Shown in pieces: positions 2,922-22,610 of a DNA stretch of 64,000 bases. The position numbers and the translations under genes are program-made. The DNA is from Pedobacter schmidteae (GTDB taxonomy: Bacteria > Bacteroidota > Bacteroidia > Sphingobacteriales > Sphingobacteriaceae). Location of the stretch: the NCBI GenBank assembly GCA_945901155.1, contig CAMDKO010000002.1, positions 1 through 64,000 on the forward strand. The letters run 5' to 3'. Numbering within the stretch: the first letter of the stretch is position 1; every line of letters starts with the position of its first letter. The notes under the pieces are model-generated. The model worked only from the letters and a program-made list of their open reading frames with translations. It ran no database searches and was not told the DNA's origin.

Positions 2922-2927
2922 AAATTG

Positions 2928-3143
2928 AGGTAGGAGGTATGAGGTAGGAGGACTGAGGTCTGAGGTCTGACTAGCGTACCTGAAATGTGTTGTCTGTTGT
3001 CTGTTGTCTGTTGTCTGTTGTCTGACAAACGAAATCTGTTAACTGTTAACTGAAATATGTTGTCTGTTGTCTGAAAAACGAAATCTGTTAACTGATAACT
3101 GACAACTGATAACTGACAACTGATAACTGACAACAGATAACCG
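2928..3143. repeat. Degenerate heptanucleotide tandem array (6 + 24 words in register)
   Basis: Reads as 7-mers: aggtagg aggtatg aggtagg aggactg aggtctg aggtctg / actagc / gtacctg aaatgtg (ttgtctg)x5 acaaacg aaatctg ttaactg ttaactg aaatatg (ttgtctg)x2 aaaaacg aaatctg ttaactg (ataactg acaactg)x2 ataactg acaacag ataaccg. Confidence 0.95.
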
Positions 3144-3149
3144 AATAAA

Positions 3150-12697: not shown

Positions 12698-12840
12698 TAA
12701 GTTATAGGTAATAAGTTATAAGGGGAAAGCTGAAAGGGGAAAGCTGAAAGCAAAAAGGTAAAAGCTGAAAGCAAAAAGGTAAAAGCTGAAAGGTAAAAGC
12801 TGAAAGCTGAAAGCTGAAAGTAAAAAGCAAAAAGTAGAGA
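12694..12840. repeat. Degenerate heptanucleotide array, 21 words in exact register
   Basis: gtaataa gttatag gtaataa gttataa ggggaaa gctgaaa ggggaaa gctgaaa gcaaaaa ggtaaaa gctgaaa gcaaaaa ggtaaaa gctgaaa ggtaaaa gctgaaa gctgaaa gctgaaa gtaaaaa gcaaaaa gtagaga. Confidence 0.95.
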
Positions 12841-12883
12841 AGAGCAATCATTAGAAATGAAGTAGTATAAAGCAATTTAAATA

Positions 12884-12925
12884 GTATTGAGTAGAGAGTA
12901 TTGAGTATTGAGATTGGAGATTGGA
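12884..12925. repeat. Heptanucleotide array, 6 words
   Basis: gtattga gtagaga gtattga gtattga gattgga gattgga. Confidence 0.9.
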
Positions 12926-13002
12926 TTAAGCTTCAAATTACTATTTAATAGTAAAATCAGAAAGAGTTTTAATGCAATAAAACTAATATTACAAGTTATG
13001 TG

Positions 13003-13073
13003 TTAACAGATAACCCGATAGCTATCGGGTGACCACAGACAACTGACAACTGACAACAGATACCTGCTAACTC
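13003..13073. repeat. Heptanucleotide words interrupted by an 18-bp perfect palindrome
   Basis: ttaacag ataaccc, then acccgatagctatcgggt at 13013-13030, then accacag acaactg acaactg acaacag atacctg ctaactc. Confidence 0.85.
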
Positions 13074-16701: not shown

Positions 16702-16911
16702 TTATTTCAATATTCTAACCACTGCTCTGAGGCAGATTACTGCTCCTAATACCCATAAAACATTGGATACAATACTGATCATAGGCCATGAACCTGTGAA
16801 ACGTAGGAATATACCAATCAAACCAATTACTATTCCTACAATAATAGTACCGTAATGAGCCGGATTATTAGCTTCAGCAGTTGCGTTATTTTTATTTAAT
16901 GAATCTTCCAT
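16702..16911 (-). CDS. Small membrane protein, hypothetical
   Basis: 69 aa with two predicted TM segments; hairpin after the stop. Confidence 0.6.
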   Translation of the reverse strand: MEDSLNKNNATAEANNPAHYGTIIVGIVIGLIGIFLRFTGSWPMISIVSNVLWVLGAVICLRAVVRILK

Positions 16912-16966
16912 TTCCGTTTATTGAGAAGGTATAAATTTACAAATCTAATTTTCAGTTCAAAATTAA

Positions 16967-17848
16967 TTATCCGTTAGACAATGCTGCCGCACCACTCACA
17001 ATCTCAGTAAGCTCGGTTGTAATTGCAGCCTGTCTTGCCTGGTTGTATGAAAGTTTAAGAGCTTTCAACAGATCACCTGCATTTTCAGTTGCTTTATCCA
17101 TAGCAGTCATACGAGCGCCATGCTCTGAAGCATGTGAGTCTAAAACTGCCTTAAATACCTGAGTTTTGATAGATTTAGGGATCAGTTGTTCAACGATCTC
17201 CTCCTGTGACGGCTCCAAAATATAATCAGTTTGCGTATTGCTCACATTCAAATTATCTGACTTTGGCACTGGCAATAGTTGTTCTGTAGTGAGGATCTGA
17301 ACAGCAGCATTTCTAAATTGATTATATACCAGTTCAACCCTGTCATACTCACCCTTAGCAAAACCAGCCATAACAGTTTCGGTAATTTTCGAAGTATTTT
17401 CGAAGCTCAGATTGGCGTATAGTTCATTGTTATTCCCTATCACATTGTATTTACGCTTCTCATAAAAATCCTGAACCTTCTTACCAATAGCTACAATCTG
17501 AACATCCCCTTTACGGTATTGTTCAGAGTACTTCTCGGCGATCAGATTATTTGTAGTCTTAATCACATTCATGTTGAATGCGCCTGCAAGACCCCGATTT
17601 GAAGAAACGGCAATGATCAATACTTTATTTGGCTCGCGTTCCTGAGTAAAAGGAGAGTTAGATCCATCCATACTTGCAGATAAATTCGACAAGATATCTC
17701 TCATCTTATTCGCATAAGGACGTAACTGAACAATTGCACTGGTAGCTCTTTTCAACTTTGCGGCAGAAACCATTTTCATGGCCTTGGTAATCTGCTGAGT
17801 TGAACTGACTGATGCTATACGATTTCTTACTTCTTTTAAATTAGCCAT
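16967..17848 (-). CDS. atpG: ATP synthase F1 gamma subunit
   Basis: MANLKEVRNRIASVSSTQQITKAMKMVSAAKLKRA; start set at internal Met at 17848. Confidence 0.96.
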   Translation of the reverse strand: MANLKEVRNRIASVSSTQQITKAMKMVSAAKLKRATSAIVQLRPYANKMRDILSNLSASMDGSNSPFTQEREPNKVLIIAVSSNRGLAGAFNMNVIKTTNNLIAEKYSEQYRKGDVQIVAIGKKVQDFYEKRKYNVIGNNNELYANLSFENTSKITETVMAGFAKGEYDRVELVYNQFRNAAVQILTTEQLLPVPKSDNLNVSNTQTDYILEPSQEEIVEQLIPKSIKTQVFKAVLDSHASEHGARMTAMDKATENAGDLLKALKLSYNQARQAAITTELTEIVSGAAALSNG

Positions 17849-17851
17849 TGT

Positions 17852-17928
17852 TATTAGATGCAAGATGTGAGGTATGAGATATAAGACCAATGTCTTATCT
17901 CAATTCTCAAATCTAATGTCTGATATCT
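17852..17928. repeat. Heptanucleotide array, 11 words, bipartite inverted
   Basis: tattaga tgcaaga tgtgagg tatgaga tataaga / ccaatgt / cttatct caattct caaatct aatgtct gatatct: NNNNAGA-type words, then NNNNTCT-type words. Confidence 0.93.
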
Positions 17929-17931
17929 CAA

Positions 17932-19506
17932 TTAATATTTATCACCCAACTCCTTAGCTACTGTTTCCAGAGCTGTTGTAATGGTATCATCCAATTTACC
18001 CGCTTTTAGCCCCTGTAGTACTTCAGGATAACGCTGATCTAATTGCTGGATAAACTCAAATTCAAATGCTTTAACCTTGTTTACAGGTACATTTCTCATT
18101 AGGTTTTTAGTTCCAACGTATAGAATTGCAACCTGCTTTTCAACTGTCTCAGGCGAAAACTGTGCTTGCTTTAACAATTCAACGTTACGGGCACCTTTAT
18201 CAAGTACAGATTTTGTTGCTGCGTCAAGATCAGATCCAAATTTAGAGAAAGCCTCCAATTCACGATACTGAGCCTGGTCAAGCTTCAAGGTACCTGCAAC
18301 TTTTTTCATCGACTTGATTTGTGCGTTACCACCTACACGAGATACCGAAATACCTACGTTAATAGCCGGACGAACACCTGCGTTGAATAAATTAGACTCC
18401 AGGAAGATCTGACCGTCAGTGATCGAGATCACGTTGGTAGGAATATATGCTGAAACATCACCAGCCTGAGTTTCAATAATTGGCAATGCTGTTAAAGAAC
18501 CGCCACCTTTTACTATATGTCTGATAGATTCAGGAAGATCGTTCATTGACTGCGCAATGGAATCATTCTGATTAATCTTTGCAGCACGTTCTAATAAACG
18601 ACTGTGAAGGTAAAATACATCACCTGGATAAGCCTCACGACCTGGAGGACGACGTAACAATAAAGACACCTCACGATAAGAAACTGCCTGCTTAGAAAGA
18701 TCATCATAAACAATCAATGCCGGTCTACCCGTATCACGGAAGAACTCACCAATTGCAGCGCCAGCAAATGGAGCATAAAACTGCATTGGAGCAGGATCAG
18801 CAGCAGATGCCGCAACGATCACTGTGTAAGGAAGAGCACCATTCTCTTCTAATACTTTTAATATTTGTGCAACAGTAGAGTTTTTCTGACCAATAGCAAC
18901 ATATATACAGAATACAGGCTTACCTGCTTCATAAAATTCTTTTTGGTTGATGATGGTATCAATACAAACCGCAGTTTTTCCGGTTTGACGATCACCAATC
19001 ACAAGCTCACGTTGCCCGCGACCAATAGGGATCATTGCATCAATTGCCTTGATACCTGTTTGTAATGGCTCTGTAACTGGCTGGCGATAGATAACACCCG
19101 GCGCCTTACGCTCCAATGGCATTTCATAAGTTTCACCGGCAATAGGACCTTTACCATCAATCGGCTGACCTAATGTATTAACTACACGGCCTAGCATACC
19201 TTCACCAACTTTGATGGAAGCGATCTTATTGGTACGTTTTACTGTAGCACCTTCTTTGATCTCATCAAAAGCACCTAATAACACGACACCCACGTTGTCT
19301 TCTTCAAGGTTCAATACGATACCTTGCAAACCGTTTTCAAATTCAACCAGCTCACCTGATTGAACTTTTGTTAAACCGTATACGCGGGCAATACCATCAC
19401 CCACTTGTAACACAGTACCAACCTCTTCGAGCTCGGCCTCAGATTTAAAGCCTGACAGTTGTTGTCTTAAAATCGCCGAAACTTCATCTGGTCTTACCTC
19501 TACCAT
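17932..19506 (-). CDS. atpA: ATP synthase F1 alpha subunit
   Basis: [20 protein letters not shown]; Walker [10 protein letters not shown]. Confidence 0.98.
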
Positions 19507-19592
19507 AGTAGTATTTTTTGAGTTTTATATTGTAAATCTTACGCCTCCACCCCTATTGGAAGCAATCAATTCCTTTTCAGGTTTTGGGGTCA

Positions 19593-20132
19593 TTAATTTT
19601 GTTGAAATTCTTTTTTAAGTTTATTCAGCTTGCTAGATAAACTTGTATCAAACTGTTTATCGCCAACCTTCAGGATAAACCCACCGATCAGATCAGGATC
19701 AACCTGGGCAGTTAAAATAACCTCACCCTTAGTTGCTTGTTTAACTACTTCTTCGATCTGGGCAATATTATCCGGACTTAAAGGAGAAGCAGATGTTACT
19801 GTTGCCTTTACAACGTTCTTTAAAATATTATACTGATTGATAAATTCCTTTCCTGTAGCATATAAAACTTGGGATCGTCCTTTCCTAACCACAATTTTAA
19901 AGAATGATAGGATCATTTTATTTAGTTTATCACCAAATAAACCATCCAAGATATTCGCCTTTTTATCAAGACTAATGATCGGATTCTTAAGAATTGCCTG
20001 TAACTGTGTATTAACCCTGCAGGTATCGAGAAACAGCTCAATATCTTTCTTAACTGGCTCAACACTATTTTGTTCAGCCGCGAGATCAATTAAAGCTTTT
20101 GCGTAACGCGATGCAACTTGTATTTCTGACAT
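19593..20132 (-). CDS. atpH: ATP synthase F1 delta subunit
   Basis: OSCP/delta family: SRYAKALIDLA..., C-terminal DPDLIGGFILKVGDKQFDTSLSSKLNKLKKEF. Confidence 0.95.
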   Translation of the reverse strand: MSEIQVASRYAKALIDLAAEQNSVEPVKKDIELFLDTCRVNTQLQAILKNPIISLDKKANILDGLFGDKLNKMILSFFKIVVRKGRSQVLYATGKEFINQYNILKNVVKATVTSASPLSPDNIAQIEEVVKQATKGEVILTAQVDPDLIGGFILKVGDKQFDTSLSSKLNKLKKEFQQN

Positions 20133-20138
20133 ATTTTT

Positions 20139-20208
20139 GTTGGTTGTTAGTTGTTAGTTGCTAGTTATTTGAATTTCTTCCTTCAAACTGTCAACTGTCA
20201 ACTGTCAA
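20139..20208. repeat. Heptanucleotide array, 10 words, bipartite inverted
   Basis: gttggtt gttagtt gttagtt gctagtt atttgaa tttcttc cttcaaa ctgtcaa ctgtcaa ctgtcaa fills the atpF-atpH gap. Confidence 0.93.
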
Positions 20209-20209
20209 C

Positions 20210-20722
20210 TTAATTAAGTTTTACTTCTTTTAACAGGTCATTAACAAGCGCCTGCTGTTTTCCCTGATCTTCGAATTGCTTACGCAAAACTTTTTCAGCG
20301 ATCTCAATAGATAAGCTGGAAACCTGATTTTTAATTTCTGCCATTGCAGCAAGCTTTTGATTAGTGATCTCAATTTTTGCTTTTTCGATCAGCTTAGCTC
20401 CTTCAGATTTAGCCAAATCTTTTGCATCATTAACGATCTGATCTTTGATCTCTTTTGCTTCCTTTAAAATGCTGTCGCGCTCTAAACGGGCTTCCTTTAA
20501 AAGATCTTCATTCTCGCTGATCAGCTTAGCCATCTCTGCTTTTGCCATTTCTGCCTTTGATAAAGCATCTTCGATTGAACGCTCACGCTCATCAAGAGCT
20601 TTAACTATTGGCTTCCAGGCAAACTTGCTTAACAGGAAAAACAGGATTAAAAAAGTAACTGTTGACCAGATGAACAAGCCCGGATCCGGAGAAACTAATG
20701 GATTTAATGCCAGTAATATCAT
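20210..20722 (-). CDS. atpF: ATP synthase F0 b subunit
   Basis: N-terminal TM then long charged helix (LSKFAWKPIVKALDERERSIEDALSKAEMAKAEM). Confidence 0.95.
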   Translation of the reverse strand: MILLALNPLVSPDPGLFIWSTVTFLILFFLLSKFAWKPIVKALDERERSIEDALSKAEMAKAEMAKLISENEDLLKEARLERDSILKEAKEIKDQIVNDAKDLAKSEGAKLIEKAKIEITNQKLAAMAEIKNQVSSLSIEIAEKVLRKQFEDQGKQQALVNDLLKEVKLN

Positions 20723-20756
20723 TTGTTATATTATTTAATAAATCATTCAAAATAAT

Positions 20757-20793
20757 AAAATAAGGCCGGTGCCAATCGCACAAGCCTTATTTT
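20757..20793 (-). terminator. Intra-operon hairpin between atpE and atpF
   Basis: Minus strand: aaaataaggcttgtgc gattg gcaccggccttatttt followed by attattttg; 14/16 paired and T-rich downstream, starting 1 nt after the atpE stop. Confidence 0.7.
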
Positions 20794-20794
20794 T

Positions 20795-22206
<1,412 letters not shown>

Positions 22207-22220
22207 TTATTATAAGGAAT

Positions 22221-22610
22221 TTACTTAAATTTTGGGTTGTGCAAGTTACACAACAAACAATATATTTCAAACACTGTATGAAAGAAATATAAATAAAAAA
22301 AATTGATGATAAATTTTGTTGGATCTACCGTGTTTTCGCTGATGTAAAGAAAAGCTATGAGCGTGCAAATGAGCAACTTAATAGTAATACTACCAAGCAG
22401 AGCCTGGCCCGAAGCATGAATGCTGATGCTCATTCTCCAAAAAGTAACTAAATAGATGCTTAACGTTAGGATAGAAAATACCCAGAACAAAAGCCAGAAT
22501 CTTGGAATAATTAGTCCTTGAATCGGAAAATAATATTGGGCCACCAAGGGAGGAATAGCTAAAAAAAATATAAAAAGAATGAAATAAATTATAAAGCGAA
22601 GAATGCTCAT
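22221..22610 (-). CDS. Small multi-TM protein between AtpZ-like and atpB, possibly AtpI-like
   Basis: 129 aa, strongly hydrophobic, overlaps the AtpZ-like gene by 4 nt. Confidence 0.55.
   Translation of the reverse strand: MSILRFIIYFILFIFFLAIPPLVAQYYFPIQGLIIPRFWLLFWVFSILTLSIYLVTFWRMSISIHASGQALLGSITIKLLICTLIAFLYISENTVDPTKFIINFFYLYFFHTVFEIYCLLCNLHNPKFK

Follow-up and report, generated by a model that had tools for sequence, protein, structure and literature searches.

The window analysed here, a stretch of 64,000 nucleotides, belongs to a Daejeonella-type genome (Sphingobacteriaceae) and carries the ATP synthase genes atpB, atpE, atpF, atpH, atpA and atpG in this order, all on the minus strand; based on gene order and strand they were taken as an operon. 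Between the stop codon of atpA (17932-17934) and the ATG of atpG, the minus strand has a gap of 83 nt (17849-17931), 77 nt of which (17852-17928) are made up of 11 consecutive 7-nt words. The array therefore nearly fills the gap and ends 3 nt from each coding sequence, as stated in the preliminary description. Read on the plus strand, the left words are TATTAGA, TGCAAGA, TGTGAGG, TATGAGA and TATAAGA, the centre word is CCAATGT, and the right words are CTTATCT, CAATTCT, CAAATCT, AATGTCT and GATATCT. All five left words had been described as NNNNAGA; four of them end in AGA and one in AGG. The heptad array with halves complementary in type is real, the lag-7 self-match being 0.68 per arm, a value equalled in none of 20,000 mononucleotide shuffles. 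In the transcript the order is atpA stop codon, AG-type words, CT-type words and atpG start codon. A hairpin had also been claimed, and the core of the array, TGAGATATAAGAC-CAAT-GTCTTATCTCA, does give an 11-bp stem with a 2-nt bulge; the transcript strand of the gap folds at -21.9 kcal/mol, with a modest z of -2.2 relative to dinucleotide shuffles. The coordinates of the features are collected in Table 1.

Table 1. Genes and putative RNA elements at the atpA-atpG gap and at two neighbouring junctions (positions in the window)
Feature	Positions	Strand	Remarks
atpG	16967..17848	-	gamma subunit, 1 copy; downstream cistron; ATG at 17846-17848
3' arm of hairpin in transcript	17852..17886	-	CT-type heptads (sense strand); adjoins atpG start codon
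Centre word CCAATGT	17887..17893	-	loop of core hairpin
5' arm of hairpin in transcript	17894..17928	-	AG-type heptads (sense strand); adjoins atpA stop codon
atpA	17932..19506	-	alpha subunit, 3 copies per complex; upstream cistron; ORF and tblastn synteny
Second inverted heptad array	20133..20209	-	atpF-atpH gap; unrelated words GTTGACA ... CAACTAA
Conserved non-heptad stem-loop	20757..20792	-	atpE-atpF gap; loop CGATTGG

Comparison of the gap across species, which had been proposed as a check, strengthens the hairpin reading, since the architecture is kept and the words are not. Among the Sphingobacteriaceae a lag-7 array was found in 41 of 54 atpA-atpG gaps and a fold with z<=-2 in 45 of 52, although these genomes, like all those counted below, share ancestry and the counts are not independent events. 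The words are wholly different between species (TGAGATA, GAGTATT, AAGTATC, TACGTTA, GTTGAAA, TTAGGAG), and in L088, L107, L114 and likewise L150 the same architecture is built from 8-nt instead of 7-nt words. The idea of a special word such as AGA/TCT finds no support in this collection. Both halves of the window array do lie in one register, as had been pointed out, but the phase between the arms takes all seven values in the orthologous gaps (8, 8, 3, 6, 3, 6 and 3 cases), and the shared register is consequently regarded as chance.

The arms nevertheless match each other. Based on species with divergent arms, pairing in the atpA-atpG gap reached -27.0 kcal/mol with the own right arm vs -12.1 kcal/mol with a foreign one, and the own arm was better in 96.4% of 1,440 comparisons; at atpF-atpH, where other species also have other words, it was better in 87.7% of 902. 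An earlier null drew its foreign arms from other gaps within one genome and gave z -2.8 for the window gap; as such arms often have words in common, it is weak for heptad arrays and was replaced by the cross-species version. It is the contrast between word families that provides the evidence that pairing is kept, because arms of a single family are nearly invariant: when seven TGAGATA-type gaps were run through RNAalifold, covariation was slight, both partners having changed in 2 of 22 pairs.

The array is not essential, since some relatives are entirely without it; the gap is short and has no array in several Pedobacter, Parapedobacter and Albibacterium and in G013 and G024. In the Cytophagales the gap is mostly short or occupied by a hairpin of any make: heptads in Hymenobacter L139 and Arcicella L140 and L147, plain stem-loops in Pontibacter, Rufibacter and Algoriphagus, and a REP-like palindrome in Hymenobacter L166. 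REP and MITE palindromes resemble the arrays in being dispersed in intergenic gaps, but the array copies have no conserved sequence and no sign of delivery by a mobile element, and the orthologous gaps are without common words across lineages. A mobile element spreading one sequence was rejected, as the window array has only three weak matches elsewhere in its own genome, the best of them in the atpD-atpC gap (G000:C8 13263-13335). The kept feature at this junction is a hairpin, and heptads are one way to build it. Relatives as a rule have a hairpin both here and at the equivalent atpD-atpC gap, but in entirely different words, which suggests that shape and place are conserved, not sequence.

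ATP synthase contains its subunits in the proportions a1, c~10, b2, delta1, alpha3 and gamma1. In the Sphingobacteriaceae, folds with z<=-2 were present at atpB-atpE in 0/52, atpE-atpF in 51/52, atpF-atpH in 23/51, atpH-atpA in 7/53 and atpA-atpG in 45/52 junctions. Hairpins thus follow subunits needed in excess (c10 to b2, alpha3 to gamma1 and about half of the b2 to delta1 junctions), and as a rule none is present where the downstream subunit is the one in excess (a1 to c10, delta1 to alpha3). Outside the family the corresponding numbers were 1/16, 17/17, 2/17, 2/18 and 17/29, which replicates the pattern for atpE-atpF, atpA-atpG, atpB-atpE and atpH-atpA; it was not replicated for atpF-atpH. 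From this step-down pattern a hairpin was expected, before looking, at atpD-atpC (beta3 to epsilon1), a junction of a separate operon. All 14 resolvable Daejeonella have an inverted heptad array there, as do G020 and G021, and 14 of these 16 arrays fold with z<=-2; the folds of G011 and G006 are weak (z -1.2 and -1.4). The words are often unlike the atpA-atpG words of the same genome.

The rplL product is likewise needed in excess, being present in 4 copies, and a strong non-heptad hairpin follows the gene in 15/15 loci with none before it. As a universal rule the step-down was rejected, because heptad hairpins also occur at sdhA-sdhB (about 1:1) and groES-groEL (1:2), where no upstream excess is needed; ilvC-leuC has heptad hairpins as well. 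In the groES-groEL gap of Daejeonella (L205-L219), a heptad hairpin after groES is followed by a more conserved stem-loop before groEL.

The stem-loop in the atpE-atpF gap is of a different kind. Its loop, CGRTTGG, is conserved and its stems change in nearly all Sphingobacteriaceae, and the other Bacteroidota loci examined have atpE-atpF stem-loops too, some with the same loop. No Rfam match was obtained for it, and no covariance model gave a match above any gathering score in window 16900-22300. It seems to be a conserved RNA element in its own right.

Based on these observations, the reading favoured here is that the array is the template of an intercistronic RNA stem-loop, maintained in self-homogenising DNA, that would lower the output of atpG (1 copy) relative to atpA (3 copies). 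The stem-loop might shield the 3' end that processing or decay leaves on the upstream mRNA segment, or it might impede entry into atpG or initiation there, and it would be one of a set placed after ATP synthase genes whose products are needed in excess. The preliminary description had placed the array over the atpG ribosome-binding region. The geometry is true, although unspecific, as the hairpin equally starts right after the upstream stop codon; along the ATP synthase genes, where hairpins come after c, b, alpha and beta but do not precede c or alpha, the pattern agrees at least as well with control of the upstream to downstream ratio as with masking of the ribosome-binding site. Both the formation of the RNA hairpin and its setting of the expression ratio are proposed here from sequence comparison. 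We give this regulatory reading about an even chance, mainly because the heptad hairpins have no G-U excess (see below).

Intercistronic stem-loops of the SRPS type set the subunit ratios of operons in Clostridium, namely cip-cel and, by prediction, ATP synthase operons (PMC8219983, PMC4423207); puf and other hairpins of this kind are cited in PMC5927463. The SRPS operons, ATP synthase included, are the closest published mechanism (PMC8219983). Like them, the atpA-atpG gap holds a stable stem-loop between cistrons, with no U-tract of an intrinsic terminator. A position after the gene needed in excess, which is typical of SRPS stem-loops, is seen in ATP synthase and at rplL and is not seen at sdhA-sdhB and groES-groEL. 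Unlike them, its arms are 7-nt direct repeats whose words are replaced wholesale between species, and they have no G-U signature. The hairpin may work like an SRPS stem-loop, as an analogue and not as an established member of the class.

A hairpin in an operon gap could also be a transcription terminator, or the gap could contain an internal promoter for atpG, and one weak sigma-70-like match was indeed seen. However, the combination of GC-rich stem and U-tract is absent from the atpA-atpG gap, as is any terminator-like site. Promoter-like matches were below the chance mean, and no signal above chance was obtained for a promoter that would make atpG independent. A TANNTTTG-like string noticed by eye in the G000 gap does not recur in relatives whose gaps are built of other words. 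Terminator and promoter are largely refuted by the sequence and are regarded as very improbable.

The turnover of the arrays has left several footprints. Between close relatives the atpD-atpC gap differs in steps of 7 nt (73 vs 52 in G000/G016, 95 vs 81 in G009/G011, 65 vs 58 in G007/G017), and the atpA-atpG gap by one such step (78 vs 71 in G007/G008). The right arm of G002 has become an exact complement of the left one through three substitutions clustered within 5 nt; at this site the older state is retained in G000, G010 and G011, and outgroups agree with G000. This is the footprint expected of template switching, a process by which hairpins are known to arise and to be maintained (PMC8794818). 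Such quasipalindrome upkeep also consists of clustered substitutions, after which one arm is exactly complementary to the other; here 7-nt tandem slippage and word replacement over a bacterial family come in addition. A third process is seen at sdhA-sdhB (L175 vs L176/L177). The flanking coding ends of G000 are 93-98% identical to those of G016 and G002, whereas the gap, together with the final stop-codon base, belongs to the type seen in the more distant G011. This indicates replacement of the gap only, the breakpoints lying on the coding borders or very close to them. Fast turnover by 7-nt slippage, template switching between arms and whole-gap replacement would explain how such arms can lose all resemblance in sequence and yet keep their inverted architecture.

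Selection on individual pairs of the transcript should leave more G-U than A-C mispairs; this criterion is our own. The ordinary stem-loops served as positive controls and gave G-U:A-C ratios of 24:10 (atpE-atpF) and 13:1 (rplL-rpoB), the former counted around the loop because a split at half the gap does not fit an off-centre hairpin. No G-U excess was present in the heptad hairpins (66:64 at atpA-atpG, 19:43 at atpF-atpH and 10:22 at atpD-atpC), and base-by-base selection on RNA pairing was thus not detected in the heptad arms by this test. The matching of the arms is for this reason attributed to DNA processes: their complementarity is probably upheld by slippage and template switching and not by base-by-base RNA selection, and selection, if any, probably acts on the presence of a hairpin at that place.

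The same mispair result favours the alternative that the arrays are a by-product of DNA metabolism, born by slippage, homogenised between arms by template switching and tolerated in spacers with no selected RNA role. This would also account for the 7-nt length steps, the template-switch footprint and the many word families scattered over other gaps, convergent ones included, and both processes have been published (hairpin upkeep by template switching in PMC8794818; 7-nt slippage by Mrazek 2007, as cited in PMC4679880). It leaves unexplained why arrays at atpA-atpG and atpD-atpC are kept in nearly all Daejeonella and those at the adjacent atpH-atpA and atpB-atpE are not, why G015 with few arrays elsewhere has one at atpA-atpG, and why non-heptad hairpins occupy the same gap in Cytophagales. 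We consider this alternative quite conceivable, though less likely than the regulatory reading.

Heptad frequencies were taken from 800 kb of the own genome, 400 kb of G007 and 400 kb of G015, the gaps being delimited by a simple ORF caller. Of the 197 same-direction gaps measuring 45-250 nt in the own genome, 19 contained lag-7 arrays; at lags 5, 6, 8, 9 and 10 these gaps contained 1-3 arrays each, so that period 7 is specific. G007 had lag-7 arrays in 7/113 same-direction gaps and G015 in only 1-2/99, the atpA-atpG gap among them. Many word families exist side by side in the own genome (TGAGATA, TAAGTTA, AAAGCTG, GTTATCA and others). Among classifiable arrays in same-direction gaps, those after a stop codon were AG-type in 9/9 cases and those before a start codon CT-type in 7/7; near gene ends in all gap classes, AG:CT was 15:6 after stops and 2:11 before starts. 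Because the orientation is polar, inverted arrays arise where an AG array behind a stop codon meets a CT array ahead of a start codon.

This orientation rule, free of exceptions in same-direction gaps, would also be expected if each heptad (NNAG-type, on one strand) were the site of a DNA- or RNA-binding protein and the rule reflected the polarity of that protein; the same polarity has been published for other heptads (PMC4692102) and for TAACTGA before starts (PMC4679880). But the words vary completely from species to species, and within one genome from junction to junction, sharing little beyond an AG/CT dinucleotide; there are also words with CG and words of 8 nt, and the arms match each other and not a fixed motif. 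Repeated binding sites therefore appear unlikely.

The published heptads differ from the arrays in other respects too. TAACTGA direct repeats occur in Beggiatoaceae, Cyanobacteria and some Bacteroidetes (MacGregor 2015, PMC4679880), mainly as single-direction arrays without a predicted structure of their own, with one indirect repeat (PMC4679880). Like the window array they are tandem intergenic 7-nt units beside a start codon, carry the CT-bearing strand before starts and vary in 7-nt length steps; unlike them, the window array has freely varying words, TAACTGA not being one of those at atpA-atpG, and its two opposed arrays form a hairpin. The GGGNATC heptads of Xanthomonas and Nostoc have a fixed word and form G-quadruplexes (Rehm 2015, PMC4692102). 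They too lie between same-direction genes, with the sense strand near stops and the antisense near starts, but the window array is without G-tracts and thus lacks the four that mark this type.

Somewhat more tentatively than for the atpA-atpG hairpin itself, we suggest a class of self-renewing RNA hairpins whose place and fold would be selected as ratio-setters of operons, whose sequence would be rewritten by slippage, template switching and gap replacement, and whose orthologues, alike in structure and place but not in sequence, would be invisible to homology and covariance searches. Such a class would link the intergenic heptad repeats of Bacteroidota, described earlier with no proven role, to the unequal output of ATP synthase subunits from one message, and it would be a warning that a conserved regulatory structure with full sequence turnover can escape every sequence-based search.

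Heptads of other kinds were seen elsewhere in the window. The gap after an lspA-like gene (2923-3147) contains three different heptad arrays, including AACTGATAACTGAC units which resemble the published TAACTGA, the TAACTGA-like units being located at 3085-3141. Heptad arrays are also present in convergent gaps, one of which (12698-13066) is full of long arrays of different words (AAAGCTG, AGTATTG, TGACAAC).
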